Program-made: the position numbers and the translations under genes
The notes under the pieces: model-generated
Database searches by the model: none
Seen by the model: only the letters and a program-made list of their open reading frames with translations
What the model was told of the DNA's origin: nothing
Shown: positions 1,519-64,000 of the stretch, one piece after another
How positions within the stretch are numbered: the stretch's first letter is position 1
How the letters are laid out: each line of letters starts with the position of its first letter
Assembly (NCBI GenBank): GCA_017744365.1
Contig: JAGIBL010000005.1
Coordinates: 62,001-126,000, forward strand
Origin: Nocardioidaceae bacterium
GTDB lineage: Bacteria > Actinomycetota > Actinomycetes > Propionibacteriales > Nocardioidaceae
DNA length: 64,000 nt
Reading direction: 5' to 3'

Positions 1519-1591
1519 GCCCCCGAGGCTAGCGAGAGCGCCGTCCGATGTCAGCGCGGAAACTTCCGGCAACCCGCGTTATCTCGTCGTG

Positions 1592-1634
1592 CCGATCTCC
1601 GTCTAGGTGACGTTCGCAGTCACCTCGAGATCGG
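1592..1634 (+). promoter_or_regulatory. nested inverted repeat in the 5' leader of the metzincin gene
   Basis: Two nested perfect inverted repeats: outer arms CCGATCTC (1592-1599) and GAGATCGG (1627-1634), inner arms AGGTGAC (1605-1611) and GTCACCT (1619-1625) around a 7-base loop. The 3' arm runs into the Shine-Dalgarno GGAGA (1633-1637) of the ATG at 1641. As RNA this would form a hairpin partly covering the ribosome site; as DNA it could be an operator. Which one applies is not decided by the sequence. Confidence 0.55.
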
Positions 1635-1640
1635 AGAACC

Positions 1641-4163
1641 ATGTCCAGACACCCACGCCGGGTCGCGGCCCTCGTCGCCGCGACCGCCGGCCTGGCCCTC
1701 GCCGCGGGGCTCGCCTCCCCGGCCCTCAGCGCGGCGGGACCGACCGCCGACCACGGGCACGCCGGGTCGCCGGGTCCGGATGCCCGCGGCGTCACCCCCG
1801 CCGCTGACCACCTGCGTGGCCGGTCGGCGGCGTCGGTGGCGGCCATCGCGCGCGAGCACGGGGTGGCGCCGAAGGTGATCGCCGGCCTGGCTCACGACGG
1901 GTCGGCGTGGTTCGACCGCGGCGGCCGGGCCTTCTTCGTCGAGCAGACCGCGCCCGGTGGCGACCCGGCCGCCGCCGGGGGCGCGAGCGCGGCGACCCCC
2001 GCGCCGTACCCGTACGCGCAGACCTTCACGCTGCACTCGCGGCCGGCGTCCAACCGCACTCTCTACCTCGACTTCGACGGCGCGGCCGTGAGCGGGACGG
2101 CCTGGAACACCAGCTACAACCAGGCCAGTGTGACCGCGGAGCCGTACGACGCCGACGGCAACCCGGCCGCGTTCGGCAGCGCCGAGCAGGACGTGATCCA
2201 GTCGGTCTGGCAGCGCGTGGCCGAGGACTACGCCAGCATGGACGTGGACGTGACCACCGAGGCCCCGGCCGCGGACCGGATCGACCGCACCGATACCACC
2301 GACCAGACCTACGGCACCGCGGTGGTGATCTCGCCGACCTCGTTCATCTCCTCCAGCTGCGCGTGCGGCGGGATGGCCTACCTCGGCGTCTTCGACTGGG
2401 CGCCCGGGCACGGGAGCTACCAGCCGGCCTGGGTGTTCACCCAGGGCGTCGGCACCGGCGCGAAGAACATCGCCGAGGCGGTCTCGCACGAGGTGGGGCA
2501 CAACCTCGGCCTCAGCCACGACGGCACCGGCACCGACGCGTACTACTGGGGCCAGGGTCACTGGGCGCCGATCATGGGTGCGGGCTACAACCAGCCGCTG
2601 ACGCAGTTCTCCACCGGTGACTACGCCGGGGCGAGCAACACCCAGGACGACTACGCCGTGATGGGCACCCACGGCGCAGCCCAGGTCGCCGACGACTACG
2701 GCGACACCAATGCCACGGCGGCCGCGCTCACGATCGGTCAGGCGAGGAGCGGCCTGGTCTCCAGCAGGTCCGACGTCGACGTGTTCTCCTACTCCGGCGA
2801 CGCGCCGGTGTCCTTCGCCATCAAGCCGGCCTCGGTCTCGCCGAACCTGGACCTCACCGTCAAGGTGACCAGCGGCGGCACCACCACGACGTACGCTCCG
2901 GCGAACGTGCGCGGCGACAACGACGTGCTCTCCGGTCTCGGCGCCACCTTCACCGTGCCGGCCGACAACGACCCGGCCACCCCGGTCTACGTCGCGGTCG
3001 AGGGCACCGGCGAGGGCGATCCGCTGACCACCGGCGAGAGCGACTACGGCAGCCGCGGCGCCTACACGATCACCACCAACCAGCAGAAGGTGGGCGTGAG
3101 CGCGTTCGGCTGGGGCGCCAACAACGTGCGCCAGCTCGGTGACGGGGTGGACACGGCGTCCACCCGGACCAAGCCCGTTCCGGTCGTCGCGATCAGCGCG
3201 TTCAACCAGATCCGGCCGGGCGCGCAGGCCACCATCGCGTTGAAGCTCGACGGCACGGTCTGGGCCTGGGGCAGCAACAGCAACGGAATGGTGAACCCGT
3301 CGACGACGAACTACTACACCTCGCCGCAGCAGGTGGCTCTGAGTGGGATCAAGAGCGTGTACGCCTTCTCGAGCATCAGGTTCGCCGTCGACGCCGCGGG
3401 TCGGGTGTACGGCTGGGGTGACAACCGCTACGGACAGACCGGTGTGGGCAGCACTGCCACCGAGGTCCGTACCCCGACGCTCATTCCCGGTCTCAGCGGC
3501 GTCGTCGCGCTCGCGGGCAACTCGCTCGGCGTCTACGCACTGAAGTCCGACGGGACCGTGTGGTCCTGGGGTTCCGGTGCGGCTGGACGGCTCGGCAACA
3601 ACACCAACATCAACAGCAGCCCGTCGCCGGTCCAGGCGAGCATCAGCGGAGTGACCGCGATCGCGGCCGGCGACCAGAACGGGTATGCACTCAAGGCCGA
3701 CGGCACGGTCTGGGCCTGGGGTGCGAACACCAACGGGCAGGACGGGATCGGCACCGCCGGCGTCGCGAGCTACCGCATGGTGCCCGTCCAGGTCGTCGGT
3801 CTCTCGGGCGTCGTGTCGCTCTCGAACGCACTCGTGGTCAAGAGCGACGGCACGGTGTGGCTGTGGGGCACGACCGGCGCCGGCGAGCGTGGGGACGGGA
3901 CGGTCAGTGCGACCGGTGTCGGAACGCCGACGAAGGTGCCGGGTCTCGCTGGCATCGACCGTGTCTTCGCGACGACCTCCGGAGATCGGACGCTGTACGC
4001 GGTGACCCACACGGGCGACGTCTGGTCGTGGGGCGAGAACGGCTATTTCCAGGCCGCAAACGGAACGGCCGTCGACGTCACCTCGCCCCACCGGATCCCC
4101 GAGCTCTCCGGGACCTCGGAGGTCAGCGCCGACCTGCAGGACGTGTTCGCCATCCAGCCCTGA
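1641..4163 (+). CDS. secreted metzincin-type metalloprotease fused to seven RCC1-like repeats
   Basis: 840 residues. N-terminal signal peptide (Arg-rich start, hydrophobic core about 10-30). The protease domain contains HEVGHNLGLSH at residues 283-293, a full HExxHxxGxxH zinc site, with a Met-turn candidate PIMGAGY about 20 residues later; this is the metzincin arrangement. A linker domain (about 345-480) resembles bacterial pre-peptidase C-terminal domains. From about residue 485 to the end there are seven repeats with the RCC1 core VWxWGxNxxGQxG (for example VYGWGDNRYGQTG, VWSWGSGAAGRLG, VWAWGANTNGQDG), enough for one closed propeller. The start is fixed by GGAGA five bases upstream of the ATG. 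It is probably an exported protease that binds surfaces or carbohydrates through the propeller; the substrate is unknown. Monocistronic, with a terminator right after. Confidence 0.85.
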   Translation: MSRHPRRVAALVAATAGLALAAGLASPALSAAGPTADHGHAGSPGPDARGVTPAADHLRGRSAASVAAIAREHGVAPKVIAGLAHDGSAWFDRGGRAFFVEQTAPGGDPAAAGGASAATPAPYPYAQTFTLHSRPASNRTLYLDFDGAAVSGTAWNTSYNQASVTAEPYDADGNPAAFGSAEQDVIQSVWQRVAEDYASMDVDVTTEAPAADRIDRTDTTDQTYGTAVVISPTSFISSSCACGGMAYLGVFDWAPGHGSYQPAWVFTQGVGTGAKNIAEAVSHEVGHNLGLSHDGTGTDAYYWGQGHWAPIMGAGYNQPLTQFSTGDYAGASNTQDDYAVMGTHGAAQVADDYGDTNATAAALTIGQARSGLVSSRSDVDVFSYSGDAPVSFAIKPASVSPNLDLTVKVTSGGTTTTYAPANVRGDNDVLSGLGATFTVPADNDPATPVYVAVEGTGEGDPLTTGESDYGSRGAYTITTNQQKVGVSAFGWGANNVRQLGDGVDTASTRTKPVPVVAISAFNQIRPGAQATIALKLDGTVWAWGSNSNGMVNPSTTNYYTSPQQVALSGIKSVYAFSSIRFAVDAAGRVYGWGDNRYGQTGVGSTATEVRTPTLIPGLSGVVALAGNSLGVYALKSDGTVWSWGSGAAGRLGNNTNINSSPSPVQASISGVTAIAAGDQNGYALKADGTVWAWGANTNGQDGIGTAGVASYRMVPVQVVGLSGVVSLSNALVVKSDGTVWLWGTTGAGERGDGTVSATGVGTPTKVPGLAGIDRVFATTSGDRTLYAVTHTGDVWSWGENGYFQAANGTAVDVTSPHRIPELSGTSEVSADLQDVFAIQP

Positions 4164-59917: not shown

Positions 59918-60107
59918 CTGACTCCCTCTCGGTAGGTGTCCTCAGCCTCGGCGGCGGTGCTCGCAGTGGGGTGTGACTCCTCTGTGCGGGATCTGTGAGC
60001 CCGGGGCCGGGGGCCCGTTCGAGAAAGTTGCCGATCTCGCGTGATGAATCCGGGTCGTGCTCCGTCTACCTGGCGGGTCCGCCGGTTGGGAGGCTGGCGT
60101 CGACCTA

Positions 60108-60177
60108 GGGTCTCCGCCCGTCACGCCTGCGTCCCCGCAGTCCCCAGCAGGCAGCTGCAGCAGGCGGGCGGAGACCC
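60108..60177 (-). terminator. large inverted repeat after the sigma-factor gene
   Basis: Perfect 13-bp outer arms GGGTCTCCGCCCG (60108-60120) / CGGGCGGAGACCC (60165-60177), with a further GCCTGC/GCAGGC inside. It starts 13 bases after the sigma-gene stop (60191) and probably ends its transcript. The remaining gap to 59918 (about 190 bp) shows nothing else and should carry the promoter of the small membrane protein. Confidence 0.7.
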
Positions 60178-60190
60178 CCCTCGACGAGGC

Positions 60191-61630
60191 TCAGGGCTCG
60201 AGCCGGAGGACCGCGTGGTTGTTCGCCGGCACCGGGTCCGGCACGCCGGGCAGGGCGAGGTCGAGCGTCGCGACGCCGGGTCCCGTGACCCAGATGTCCA
60301 CCGCCAGGTCGCCGACGTTCCGGCCCAGGCGGCAGCGCAGCTCGGTCGAGGACCCCGTGCACCGCCAGTCGCCGTACGCACGCTCGGCGTGCACCTGGAA
60401 CCGGACCGGCGCGGGCGTGACCACCAGCACCGCCACCACCCCGGGGACCGCGTGCGTCACGGTGAACCGGGTGTGCAGCACCTGCGGGTGCGCCGGATCG
60501 ACGGTCTCCGCGGTGGCGGGGCCGAGGGAGAGGTCCTCGAGGAGCGGCGCCGGCCGCGAGGTCGGGGGAGCGAGCAGGGGAGTCGGCCGCGGCTTCGACG
60601 TCACCGGTGGCGGCGCCGCGGGCCGCGGCGTGGGCGTGTGCGCGGGAGCCGGTCTCGGGGTCGCCCCCGGGGACGAGGGCGACGGCGTGAGGGGCAGCGG
60701 CGCGGGACGCAGGACCCGGGCGGTCGCCGGTGCCGGCAGCGAGGTCCCGGGCGCGGAGTCGCGCTCGTGCGCCCAGATCACCAGCCCGAGCACGACCGCA
60801 GCGGTGCTCAGCAGGGCCGCGCCGCGCAGTGAGTGGCGGGGATCGCGATCCGCGTGCGGATGCGCGTCCACGGCGACGGAGCCGGCACCCAGCACCAGCG
60901 GCACCACGAGCGCGAGGTCCTTGTTGATCGCGGCGAGCTCGGCCACCGCCGTCGAGCAGCGCAGGCAGCCGGCCACGTGGTTGTCGACCTTCGCCCGCCG
61001 GGTCCCGGACAGGCCGTCGCGCACGTAGCCGGGAAGCAGGTCGACGATGCGGGCGCAGCGTTCGTCGCCGGCCTGGCGCACGTGCTCGGCCAGGTACTGC
61101 AGGCGCAGCCCCTCGCGCGCCCGCACCCCGAGCTGGGAGACCGCGTGCGGCTTCATGTCCAGCAGCGCGGCGACCTCGGCCACGCCCATGCCCTCGATCG
61201 CGGTGAACCAGAGCACCGTCTGCCACCGCTCCGGCAGGCCGAGGAACGCCCGGCCGACGGTCGCCGAGCGGAACCGGACGTCGCTGCCGTCGTCGACCGC
61301 GAACGTCTCGCCGAGCACCGAGAGGTCGCCCATCCAGGAGTGCCGGGTGTCCTGGCGGATCCGGTCCACGTGCAGCCGGCGGATCGCGGCCAGCAGGTAG
61401 GCACGGAACGTCACGGTGGGGCCACGGCCGTCGCGCAGCAGGCCGTAGATGCGGGCGAACGCCTCGGCGACCAGGTCGTCGGCCCGGTCCGGGCTGGTCA
61501 GCTGGCCGGCGGCCCGCAGGGCGGCTCGGTGGTGCCGGGCGAAGAGCGCGGCGAACGCGTCGTCGTCGCCGCTGCGGGCCCGGGCCAGGTACTCGGCGTC
61601 CGAGGGCTCGTCGGTGTCGAAGGTGGTCAC
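60191..61630 (-). CDS. ECF sigma factor fused to anti-sigma zinc finger, membrane helix and extracellular domain
   Basis: 479 residues. Residues 1-190 are an ECF sigma factor: region 2 (FAALFARHHRAALRAAGQL, DDLVAEAFARIYGLL) and region 4 (LPERWQTVLWFTAIEGMGVAEVAALLDMKPHAVSQL, in part). Next comes an anti-sigma-type zinc finger: His218, Cys222 and Cys225 (HVAGCLRC). A membrane helix follows (about 270-287, AALLSTAAVVLGLVIWA), then a Pro/Thr-rich spacer (290-370) and a C-terminal beta domain (375-479) with DUF11-like features (WRCTGSSTELRCRLG, PDPVPANNHAVLRL). The whole is a one-protein transmembrane sensor with a sigma factor at the cytoplasmic end. It is preceded by a small protein gene 13 bases upstream, likely in the same operon. 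Confidence 0.85.
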   Translation of the reverse strand: MTTFDTDEPSDAEYLARARSGDDDAFAALFARHHRAALRAAGQLTSPDRADDLVAEAFARIYGLLRDGRGPTVTFRAYLLAAIRRLHVDRIRQDTRHSWMGDLSVLGETFAVDDGSDVRFRSATVGRAFLGLPERWQTVLWFTAIEGMGVAEVAALLDMKPHAVSQLGVRAREGLRLQYLAEHVRQAGDERCARIVDLLPGYVRDGLSGTRRAKVDNHVAGCLRCSTAVAELAAINKDLALVVPLVLGAGSVAVDAHPHADRDPRHSLRGAALLSTAAVVLGLVIWAHERDSAPGTSLPAPATARVLRPAPLPLTPSPSSPGATPRPAPAHTPTPRPAAPPPVTSKPRPTPLLAPPTSRPAPLLEDLSLGPATAETVDPAHPQVLHTRFTVTHAVPGVVAVLVVTPAPVRFQVHAERAYGDWRCTGSSTELRCRLGRNVGDLAVDIWVTGPGVATLDLALPGVPDPVPANNHAVLRLEP

Positions 61631-61643
61631 GGCAGCGGCCGGG

Positions 61644-61937
61644 TCAGCAGACGTCGAGCCCGACCAGCAGCGGCGCGACCGAGTACTCCATCTGCGACCG
61701 GGTGTCGTGCGCCCGGTCCCACGCGGCCTCGCGGTCGGCGGCGAGCACGGCGGCCAGGCCGTCGTCGTACGGGCCCTCGTAGCTGGTGGCGCCGGTGCAC
61801 AGGTCGCGGCAGATCACGATGTGCGGGCCGTCCATGCCGGCGGCGAGGATCCGGATGCAGCCCTCCATCACCTGGTGGGCGTCGGTCGGTGGCCAGTCGG
61901 TCGGCCGTCCGGAGACGGCGGGTGAGTTCTCGTCCAT
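61644..61937 (-). CDS. uncharacterised small protein, paralog of 49407-49883
   Basis: 97 residues. The whole protein corresponds to the C-terminal domain of the protein at 49407-49883: HIVICRDLCTGATSYEGPY here against VLITRDAGTGAIRYDGPF there, and YSVAPLLVG against LTVAPLLPH. Three Cys residues (CIRIL, ICRDLC) are unique to this copy. It ends 13 bases before the fused sigma factor start and is probably co-transcribed with it. Predicted cytoplasmic; no function is known. Confidence 0.72.
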   Translation of the reverse strand: MDENSPAVSGRPTDWPPTDAHQVMEGCIRILAAGMDGPHIVICRDLCTGATSYEGPYDDGLAAVLAADREAAWDRAHDTRSQMEYSVAPLLVGLDVC

Positions 61938-62009
61938 GCCCCTCAGACGGACGAGACCCCCCTCAGATCACGGAACTTCGCGCAGTTCCTGCCGCGGGCT
62001 CCCGGGAGG

Positions 62010-63446
62010 TCAGCCGCGCAGGCTGCCCATCCACTCCTCGATCGCGTCCGGGTCGCGGGGCAGCGCGGCCGACAGGTTCCGGGCACCGTCGGCGGTGACC
62101 ACGATGTCGTCCTCGATCCGGATGCCGATGCCGCGCAGCTCCTCGGGCACCAGCAGGTCGTCGACCTGGAAGTACAGCCCCGGCTCCACGGTGAGCACCA
62201 TGCCCTCGGCGAGCGGGCCCTCGGGGTAGACCTCCATCGCCGTCGCGGCGCAGTCGTGCACGTCCATGCCGAGCATGTGGCTCGTCGAGTGCAGCGTCCA
62301 GCGGGCGTAGACCTTGCTGTCCGGCGCCAGCGCCTCCTCGGCGGAGACCGGCAGCAGGCCGAGGTCCTCGAGCGCGTGCGCGAGCACGTCCATCGCGGCG
62401 TGGTGCGGGTCGCGGAAGTGCACACCTGGCCGGATCGCGTCGATGCCGGCCTGCTGAGCCTGGAGCACCGCCGTGTAGAGGTCGCGCTGCAGCGTGGTCC
62501 AGCGGCCGTCGATCGGCAGCGTCCGGGTCACGTCGGCGGTGTAGAGCGAGGACGCCTCGGCGCCCATGTCCAGCAGCATCAGCTCGCCAGGGGTGATCGG
62601 GCCGGAGTTGTCGATCCAGTGCAGCGTAGTCGCGTGCTGGCCACCGCCGACGATCGAGTCGTAGCCGATGTCGTTGCCCATCGCCCGTGCCCGGCGGAAG
62701 AAGGTGCCCTCGATCCAGCGCTCGCCGAACTCCAGCACCCGGTCCCACTCGCGGACCGAGTCCTCGAAGCCGAGCGTGGTGATGTCGCAGGCCTGCTGCA
62801 GCTCGCCGAGCTCCCACTCGTCCTTGACCAGGCGGAGCTCGGAGAGCACCCGGGCCAGGTCCGCGTCGCGGCCCTCGTCGGCGGCGACCAGCTTGTCCAC
62901 CCCGGCGTCCACGCCGCGCAGCACGCGGGTCTTGGTGGTGCCTCCCAAAGCGGCGGCGAGCTCGTCGATGTGCCGGGTCTCGATGCCCAGCGAGGCCGAG
63001 ATCTCGCCGAGGGAGGGCCGCCGGCCCGCCCACAGCTCGCCGTACTGGCGATCCCGGAAGAACTCGTCGGTGTCCCGGCTGCTGCGCGGCCGCGCGTAGA
63101 GGACCGACTCGCCGCCCTCGACGACCAGCACGGCGTCCGAGGTCTGGTTGCCGGTCAGGTGGGTGTGCGCGGTCTCGGAGCGGAACCGGTAGTCGGTGTC
63201 GTTGGCGCGGACCTTGAAGGTGCCCGCGGGCACCACCAGCCGCTCGCCGGGGAAGAGCTCGGCCAGCCGGGCGCGCCGGGCCGCGGCCCACGGGGTCACC
63301 GGATGCGGCGGCAGATCCAGCTCACGGTCGCCCCAACCGGTGCGCATGAACGCCGCGTACTTCTCGGGGACGGCCTGGTCGTGCTTCTCGACGCGCAGCT
63401 CCTGGGCGGTCTGGGGGTCGGACGGTTCGCTGGTCACATCGCTCAC
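62010..63446 (-). CDS. pepP: Xaa-Pro aminopeptidase (aminopeptidase P)
   Basis: 478 residues from GTG 63446. The N-terminal domain (about 45-185) has the aminopeptidase P fold with RSETAHTHLTGNQTSDAVLV. Catalytic domain: metal ligands Asp in LLLDMGAEASSLYTADVTRT (two Asp), His in HSTSHMLGMDVHD, Glu in VLTVEPGLYF and Glu in GIGIRIEDDIVV. The length and the AMPP_N domain distinguish it from the partial M24 enzyme at position 1. Cytoplasmic; cuts N-terminal residues before proline. Confidence 0.95.
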   Translation of the reverse strand: MSDVTSEPSDPQTAQELRVEKHDQAVPEKYAAFMRTGWGDRELDLPPHPVTPWAAARRARLAELFPGERLVVPAGTFKVRANDTDYRFRSETAHTHLTGNQTSDAVLVVEGGESVLYARPRSSRDTDEFFRDRQYGELWAGRRPSLGEISASLGIETRHIDELAAALGGTTKTRVLRGVDAGVDKLVAADEGRDADLARVLSELRLVKDEWELGELQQACDITTLGFEDSVREWDRVLEFGERWIEGTFFRRARAMGNDIGYDSIVGGGQHATTLHWIDNSGPITPGELMLLDMGAEASSLYTADVTRTLPIDGRWTTLQRDLYTAVLQAQQAGIDAIRPGVHFRDPHHAAMDVLAHALEDLGLLPVSAEEALAPDSKVYARWTLHSTSHMLGMDVHDCAATAMEVYPEGPLAEGMVLTVEPGLYFQVDDLLVPEELRGIGIRIEDDIVVTADGARNLSAALPRDPDAIEEWMGSLRG

Positions 63447-63563: not shown

Positions 63564-64000
63564 ATGCGAGCCCGCGCGAACAACGTCGCCTTCACCACCT
63601 GGGTCGGCGTCTTCCTGTTCGCGGGCGCCGGCGTGATGGCCCTGGTGCTCGCCGCGGCCGGTGCTCCGCAGGCGATCGCGATCGGCGTGGTGCTCGCCGC
63701 GCTCCCGGTCGGCCCGCTCGTCGGGGTCTACCTGTGGCTGGACCGCTACGAGCCGGAGCCGCGCTCGCTGCTGCTGCTCGCGCTCGGCTGGGGGGCCTTC
63801 GTGGCGACCAGCGCGGCGATCTTCCTGCAGGCCTTCGACGCGTTCGCGTTCGGCTCCAGCGAGGCGCACCAGTCGGTGGTGGTGGCACCGCTGACCGAGG
63901 AGGCCGCCAAGGGCCTGTTCATCGTGCTGCTGCTGGTCTACCGGCGTGCCGAGCTGGACGGGGTGCTGGACGGCATCGTGTACGCCGGCATGGTCGGCAT
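63564..64000 (+). CDS. prsW: PrsW-type intramembrane metalloprotease, 3' end missing
   Basis: 145 codons visible from ATG 63564; the frame is open at the window end. Membrane helices at about 8-30, 35-55, 68-88 and 105-122. Family marks are LDRYEPEPRSLL after the second helix, VVAPLTEEAAKGL (the EE metal-ligand motif) and LDGVLDGIVYAGMVG with the conserved Asp-Gly. PrsW proteins cut membrane anti-sigma factors in some bacteria; here the fused sigma/anti-sigma protein at 60191-61630 lies only 2 kb away, which is suggestive but unproven. Confidence 0.85.
   Translation, partial: MRARANNVAFTTWVGVFLFAGAGVMALVLAAAGAPQAIAIGVVLAALPVGPLVGVYLWLDRYEPEPRSLLLLALGWGAFVATSAAIFLQAFDAFAFGSSEAHQSVVVAPLTEEAAKGLFIVLLLVYRRAELDGVLDGIVYAGMVG

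Follow-up and report, generated by a model that had tools for sequence, protein, structure and literature searches.

A fused ECF sigma/anti-sigma membrane protein of a Nocardioidaceae bacterium and a promoter-like site that it shares with a gene for a giant RHS protein

A candidate one-piece surface receptor and its likely output

A 64,000-nucleotide stretch of DNA from a Nocardioidaceae bacterium (assembly GCA_017744365.1, contig JAGIBL010000005.1, positions 62,001 to 126,000 of the forward strand; hereafter the window) carries on its minus strand a gene (60191..61630) for a 479-residue protein with a GTG start, in which an extracytoplasmic function (ECF) sigma factor, a zinc-finger anti-sigma domain, a membrane segment, a Pro-rich spacer and a beta-sandwich domain follow one another in a single chain. 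With a probability of roughly 55%, we read this protein as a one-piece surface receptor, self-inhibited and autoregulating, that switches on its own operon and the gene of an exported RHS protein through the site CGTGATCTGAGG-N11-CGTCT. The window sits on contig 11 of the genome (G000), which is rich in G+C and comprises 15 contigs with 4.76 Mb in all. Computation brings out the domains of the protein, its family, a promoter-like class with three exact copies and a small partner gene.

In the mechanism that we propose, the sigma part would lie in the cytoplasm, where the zinc finger that follows it in the chain keeps it inactive, and the membrane helix and Pro-rich stalk would present the beta sandwich outside. 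An outside event (a ligand, wall contact or stress) would release or open the sigma part, most likely through cleavage in or near the membrane, and the freed sigma would then direct RNA polymerase to CGTGATCTGAGG-N11-CGTCT promoters. One target would be its own operon, giving positive feedback in which a small SYxGPY protein is made first; the gene of a 2259-residue exported RHS/DNRLRE protein would be the other.

Fused sigma/anti-sigma receptors are widespread in actinobacteria, and little is known of their signals, promoters and targets. What is new here is a likely output, i.e., a promoter-like word that recurs beside family genes across several genera. The three-site extended form common to one receptor and one RHS gene opens an orphan group to testing, and if the pairing is true, nature would here offer a simple switch made of one protein, leading from an event outside to a chosen promoter, with as many as five parallel versions in one genome. 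More tentatively, at a little short of even odds, this lineage may have built up several surface receptors that each consist of one protein and read a dialect of their own of an ancestral ECF promoter, CGTNATG-N15/16-CGTCT. The conserved copy would drive a divergently transcribed gene for a 246-residue protein, and the fast-evolving copies with SYxGPY partners would drive exported proteins; the present one would serve as the private switch of a giant RHS surface protein, perhaps acting between cells, by which outside contact calls up an RHS weapon or adhesin.

Domain architecture of the fused protein

Sigma region 2 (residues 29-96; 61343..61546, minus strand, as for all domains below) matches Pfam PF04542 (Sigma70_r2) at E 1.8e-7, above the cut-off, and the genome search puts it at the same place. 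Region 4 (residues 127-173; 61112..61252) matches PF08281 (Sigma70_r4_2) at 2.8e-5, its 24.1 bits falling slightly short of the cut-off of 25.7, and the whole protein matches TIGR02937 (sigma70-ECF) with 49 bits (cut-off 42.9). Directly behind lies a zf-HC2 anti-sigma zinc finger (residues 192-225; 60956..61057; PF13490, E 1.3e-7, above cut-off) with the ligands C192, H218, C222 and C225, the last three within HVAGCLRC (HxxxCxxC), which starts at residue 218. All cysteines of the protein are at 192, 222, 225, 424 and 433, and the ligand set of the finger is complete. At E <=1e-50 the genome holds five fused members, this protein counted, each in a long frame; the other four (L010 to L013) are called siblings below. 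Within a 16-row alignment that includes the protein itself, every row has H218, C222 and C225, and at least 90% have C192, which sibling L012 lacks; the three core Pfam families are present at E <=1 in 16 of 16 aligned members.

Behind the finger, hydropathy predicts a membrane helix at residues 267-285 (60776..60832), with a second hydrophobic stretch at 239-257. The two score almost alike (1.88 vs 1.76), and hydropathy alone therefore leaves one and two membrane passes undecided. A spacer with 25 Pro among 75 residues follows (residues 288-362; 60545..60769), and PANNHA stands at residue 468. These results support an initial annotation of the window, which had read from it ECF regions 2 and 4, an HxxxCxxC finger, a membrane helix, a Pro-rich spacer and a PANNHA ending in one chain. 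In a full-length structure model the sigma, finger and outer domains are good and residues 249-323 unreliable (pTM 0.38); for that reason we make no claim from it on how the finger grips the sigma part. Judged by its sequence, the protein is a fused ECF sigma factor, membrane-tethered and presumably self-inhibited, with an outside domain.

The C-terminal beta-sandwich domain (60194..60538) was modelled with AlphaFold2 as the last 125 residues, which fold into nine strands (pLDDT 91.4). C424 and C433 are the only cysteines outside the finger, are invariant in 40 of 40 chosen family domains aligned and are probably stapled by a disulphide; D465 is found in at least 90% of the aligned C-terminal domains. 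The pattern WxC...C...D..NN, which we take to be that of DUF11 (PF01345), is thus present on a beta sandwich. A direct Pfam scan gave no DUF11 match at E <=1 in the outer domain of this protein; across the family, 13 of the 40 C-terminal domains matched PF01345 at E <=1 (best 3.2e-5). The DUF11-like character proposed in the initial annotation does not extend to a PF01345 match in this protein; as a label, 'DUF11-like' is fair for the family and weak for this member. Residues 355-479 had no match to NPCBM or any other Pfam or NCBIfam family at E <=1.

Foldseek returned 1404 matches to the outer domain at E <=10, one of them at E <=0.001 (4ei0_B, 9.8e-4), and most were generic beta sandwiches such as integrin legs and cohesin-like or CBM2-like domains. 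Z scores in VIA-align were 10.0 for 6vbv_7 (rmsd 5.4), 9.3 for the chitin-binding 2cwr (90 residues, 2.5 A) and 8.7 for the xylan-binding 1e5b (85 residues, 2.1 A), which is at best a hint, from modelled structure, of glycan binding. CD4, the best profile match among PDB sequences (E 0.044), was of no use as a relative.

The operon site, its exact copies and the small partner gene

The promoter-like site of the operon, CGTGATCTGAGGGGGGTCTCGTCCGTCT (61945..61972, minus strand), lies 7 nt before the ATG at 61937, and a leaderless message is therefore likely. That ATG opens the probable first gene of the sigma operon (61644..61937, minus strand), which codes for the 97-residue SYxGPY protein and is separated from the sigma GTG by a gap of 13 nt. 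The extended form CGTGATCTGAGG-N11-CGTCT has three sites in the genome at zero mismatches, none at one or two and nine at three; its reversed control has a total of five with three mismatches or fewer. Besides the operon site, one exact copy ends directly at the ATG of the 2259-residue RHS gene (contig 12), whose product has a hydrophobic export-like start, DNRLRE, RHS repeats (RHS_repeat), Rhs_assc_core and a tip behind the core. The third precedes a 282-residue broken RHS relative (contig 7), 66% identical over 268 columns. Between the two RHS starts, 38 of 40 bases agree after the site and 18 of the 60 that precede it. For the sigma site and the RHS site, 15 of 60 upstream positions are identical, and since the DNA before the sites is otherwise so unlike, the copying of a block does not account for their match. 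That the sigma and RHS genes share these letters is most simply put down to autoregulation, and from this we infer that this sigma, rather than a sibling, reads the sites.

The broken RHS copy (L181:1874-2777; G000:C7:693874 on) stands beside frames that look mce-like by eye. It resembles the intact gene from the promoter site onward, which looks like the copying of promoter and leader as one cassette.

Relatives of the 97-residue product are encoded directly downstream of siblings L012 (tblastn, E 1.6e-14) and L010 (0.002), and also downstream of the family members L054 (4e-5) and L024 (0.002). A profile of neighbouring frames recovers the small proteins of L010, L012 and L024, that of L054 being seen by tblastn only, and adds frames upstream of L024 and L026 (E <=5e-20) that overlap the assumed sigma start; the profile already contained its members, and its E-values are to be read with that in mind. 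Common to these small proteins is SYxGPY or a near variant. The 97-residue protein belongs to no Pfam or NCBIfam family, and our guess is that it acts as a cytoplasmic regulator of the sigma part or the finger.

A promoter-like element across the family

The best bipartite word upstream of family genes occurs in 34 of 110 regions, compared with 4 for the best word of a crude shuffle that moved two-base blocks. Its strict form GA[GA]AC-N18-TGACG is found in 52 of the 110, and on the other strand reads CGTCA-N18-GT[CT]TC, which we take to be built like an ECF promoter (-35, spacer, -10). With the genome itself excluded, 49 of 101 upstream regions contain CGTNATG-N15-CGTYY, whereas 20 sets shuffled with dinucleotides preserved average 0.0. 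In 43 regions the element is directed away from the sigma gene, in 9 toward it; toward-pointing sites lie close to the start in L020 (8 nt), L011 (10 nt, a variant) and L142-L144 (36-44 nt), and variants face siblings L011 and L012. Members under 270 bits were left out of both sets. Many loci come from close Kribbella and Aeromicrobium species, one is doubled (L020 = L136), and the four siblings entered the 110 regions twice, so that these counts are not independent events; despite this kinship, genera differ and so do both orientations.

The divergent 246-residue protein is encoded at 42 of 45 loci with an away-pointing site, at 36 of 65 without a strict site and at 78 of 119 overall (the 119 contain doubles, as L010-L013 and L020 reappear as L132-L136). 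Neither Pfam nor NCBIfam matches it at E <=0.01. An example, L135:10801-11538, has an LTGL motif and looks GGDEF-like by eye. Separately, a palindrome like TGTGATCTGGGTCACA, which presumably resembles a CRP site, stands close before family members L011, L046, L061 and L101.

Comparison with known systems

The fused design itself is of a known kind and ordinary in actinobacteria, and the earlier remark that fused forms occur there agrees with the five members in this genome, dozens of relatives and the published groups ECF52 and ECF53. The layout of fused sigma, zinc finger and membrane part is published for ECF52 and ECF53, with proteolytic release proposed and not demonstrated (PMC5826349, PMC8999054). 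A close likeness is to ECF52, an actinobacterial group in which a single chain, that of SCO4117 of Streptomyces coelicolor, unites ECF sigma and zinc finger with a membrane region, a Pro-rich extension and a C-terminal outside domain, and for which autoregulation has been proposed (PMC5826349). The present protein likewise has sigma regions 2 and 4, a zinc finger directly behind them and a membrane helix with Pro-rich extension, in a predicted topology. It differs in its outer part: SCO4117 ends in a carbohydrate-binding (NPCBM) module, whereas this protein ends in a DUF11-like sandwich in which NPCBM was not found. The published SCO4117 motif CSGYN-17-SRHA is also unlike the element found here (PMC5826349). 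SCO4117 has been called the best understood fused sigma (PMC8999054), and its motif is described as unsettled (PMC5826349).

ECF53 and ECF48 are alike in their C-terminal fusion to a zinc finger and membrane helices and in predicted proteolytic activation (PMC8999054, PMC10766802), a likeness of described layouts; a group assignment needs the sigma models of the groups. IutY of Pseudomonas putida (ECF243), likened here by its described mechanism, is a comparable sigma/anti-sigma fusion for which regulated cleavage was demonstrated (PMC8999054). On the target side, the proposed RHS gene product resembles RHS/YD-repeat proteins in its RHS repeats, RHS core, DNRLRE and export-like start; polymorphic toxins are the subject of PMC3482391. 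Our searches of the literature met with no mention of the promoter class, the three-copy form with its RHS target or the small partner, any of which could already stand in the 2015 survey or the 2021 classification. One search aimed at an RHS gene under a fused ECF sigma found no paper.

Assignment of the sites and proposed mode of release

Several points weigh against the receptor reading. The case is built from sequence and structure models, and both the sites and the release are predictions. Siblings L010 and L012 could read the same site class, and L012 has a similar site of its own. The operon site departs from the family word by a C for G at the seventh base and a spacer of 16. Because the RHS starts are duplicates, the third exact site is not independent and the RHS pair counts once. 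The promoter words were picked after the sequences had been seen, and loose-match counts are a noisy measure. The element is absent upstream of L137, L138, L139, L150 and L151 (genus g12, Streptomyces by inference), and the protein has no orthologue in 24 genomes of its genus, where the best match reaches 40% identity (G018).

The alternative that survives best accepts the promoter class as real and lets L012, L010 or an unfused ECF sigma read the RHS and operon sites, which would make the protein a target and not a driver; we find it doubtful, though worth serious weight. ECF cascades are known, the genome has 44 region-2 matches, and L012 carries CGTAATG-N16-CGTCC 126 nt before its own start (for L010, no own site lies within 900 nt). 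Against this, the CTGAGG extension is common, without mismatch, only to this operon and the RHS pair, and ECF sigmas commonly activate their own expression (PMC5826349).

For the receptor reading, the steps from outside domain to release follow, by analogy, IutY and the proposals for ECF52, and on that analogy are the most likely course; that the finger inhibits, that cleavage releases and that the outside domain has a ligand would all belong to it. Activation by a change of shape without cleavage, in which the outside domain shifts the helix and loosens the finger so that the sigma works while tethered, seems unlikely to us. It agrees with the finding that no protease gene is consistently linked to the family (PrsW alone was examined), and for ECF52 a change of conformation is mentioned as well as cleavage (PMC5826349). 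A tethered sigma would, however, have to reach promoters across the chromosome, and in the fused IutY it is cleavage that brings activation (PMC8999054).

The initial annotation had pointed to prsW as the gene of a possible protease. Its start at 63564 is indeed ~1.9 kb from the sigma start (PF13367, 5e-20 for the in-window part), and PrsW cuts the anti-sigma factor RsiW in Bacillus subtilis. That PrsW makes the first cut here and is the genomic partner is nevertheless very unlikely. Every one of 39 genomes has one to four PrsW matches, including 12 with no match to the fused sigma at E <=1e-10. Among 53 fused-sigma matches in 27 genomes (a few covering the sigma part only), 20 share a contig with prsW and just one, the present protein, is less than 10 kb from it, the shortest distance otherwise being 123 kb. 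A frame at 62010-63446, read by eye as aminopeptidase P, also intervenes between the sigma operon and prsW. We therefore rejected PrsW as a conserved partner, and the suggested link fell with it: by these comparisons the neighbourhood looks accidental. PrsW might cut the protein all the same, and so could the M50 site-2 proteases, for which this genome has genes at two places, C7:350593 and C7:1156602.

Matches to the element in this genome

The loose pattern CGTNATS-N15/16-CGTCT has 17 matches in the genome, against 1 for its reversed control. The 38 relatives have 1-12 matches each, and their reversed control ranges from 0 to 16 (16 in G034), so that part of the 17 is background. CGTRATS-N16-CGTCTA has 10 matches here, 0 in each of the 38 relatives and 0 in the reversed control of this genome, a contrast that speaks of lineage specificity and is no independent test because the final A and N16 were taken from the sites of this genome. 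With the strict N15 pattern, two sites are found. That the protein is an ordinary ECF52-type member and the shared words a coincidence of G+C-rich DNA is highly improbable, since, for all that the words were found after the fact and the loose counts overlap their reversed control, 49 of 101 regions against 0.0 in shuffles and the ten-to-none contrast, read off this genome as that form was, are against it.

Nine of the 17 sites lie 0-46 nt ahead of a start codon that we judged credible. Seven of these nine genes open with a strong hydrophobic segment and look exported or membrane-bound (a raw count with no background rate); the other two encode a 146-residue protein and the present sigma operon. 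Site L158 is followed, after 179 nt, by an alcohol-dehydrogenase-like frame, L155 and L168 fall within longer frames, and L154, L159, L160, L161 and L166 have no believable target. Within the window, a variant site CGTTATC-N16-CGTCT (1577..1604, plus strand) lies 36 nt before a possible target (1641..4163, plus strand), for which library scans indicate an exported M12-like metallopeptidase of 840 residues with RCC1 repeats. At L183, around G000:C10:166794, the start of an exported protein follows a site after 7 nt; the frame of this protein appears interrupted, with the second half in another frame.

Family distribution and phylogeny

At E <=1e-10 the fused sigma is matched in 27 of 39 genomes, this one counted and most from its own genus and order, and a profile search of the phylum matched 22 of 296 genomes at E <=1e-30. 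In a scan of named genomes, the 80 relatives listed out of 561 are mostly from Nocardioides, Aeromicrobium, Kribbella and metagenome-assembled genomes (MAGs) of Nocardioidaceae, with single records from Mumia, Pimelobacter, Umezawaea, Arthrobacter and others. The outer parts of ten scanned members comprise NPCBM (two), ricin-type lectin (two), bacterial Ig, DUF7507, and pilin domains with an LPXTG anchor, and three of the ten have no known outer domain; by these scans the outer part is the variable piece of the family. NPCBM is confirmed by Pfam in L137 and L138, and genus g12 has four NPCBM signatures, the one purpose for which automatic C-terminal labels were used, these being crude (52 of 113 'other', and several Kribbella repeats 'LPXTG' by chance).

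A quick tree of the sigma and finger part, with 40 open forks and long branches, places the protein in a long-branched clade of 12 rows (SH-aLRT 97) with siblings L010 and L011 and with L020. The NPCBM clade (98) is separate from it; deeper forks are open and SCO4117 is absent from the tree. Sibling L013 falls within a large short-branched Nocardioides group, and L012 lies outside both that group and the 12-row clade.

A few relatives have unusual architectures. In Arthrobacter sp. efr-133-TYG-118 (L120:7941-10544), an 867-residue frame combines ECF sigma, zf-HC2, membrane helix, pilin D1, pilin BB, SpaA and LPXTG, from which it appears that a sigma factor could be tied to the cell wall by sortase. 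Giant fused sigmas of 1702 and 1769 residues occur in Nocardioidaceae MAGs (L057:7829-12937 and L070:7983-13292), with ~1400 residues behind the membrane part in which no Pfam family is found at E <=0.001. L147:9445-9987 (G226) is a stand-alone family sigma of 180 residues, in a frame without finger or membrane part, and Aeromicrobium sp. 9AM (L066:7965-10414) has family members in tandem, a 256-residue sigma and finger without membrane part followed by a full fused one.

A convergent site and a hairpin behind the sigma gene

A second site of the same class in the window, CGTGATGAATCCGGGTCGTGCTCCGTCT (60040..60067, plus strand), faces the 3' end of the sigma gene. Between it and the sigma stop codon sits a long G+C-rich hairpin (60108..60177; RNA fold z -3.0, with 2 of 200 shuffles folding as well), which may be a terminator or part of a short RNA. 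From the interval 60040-60177, a short RNA may arise that runs head-on into the sigma message.
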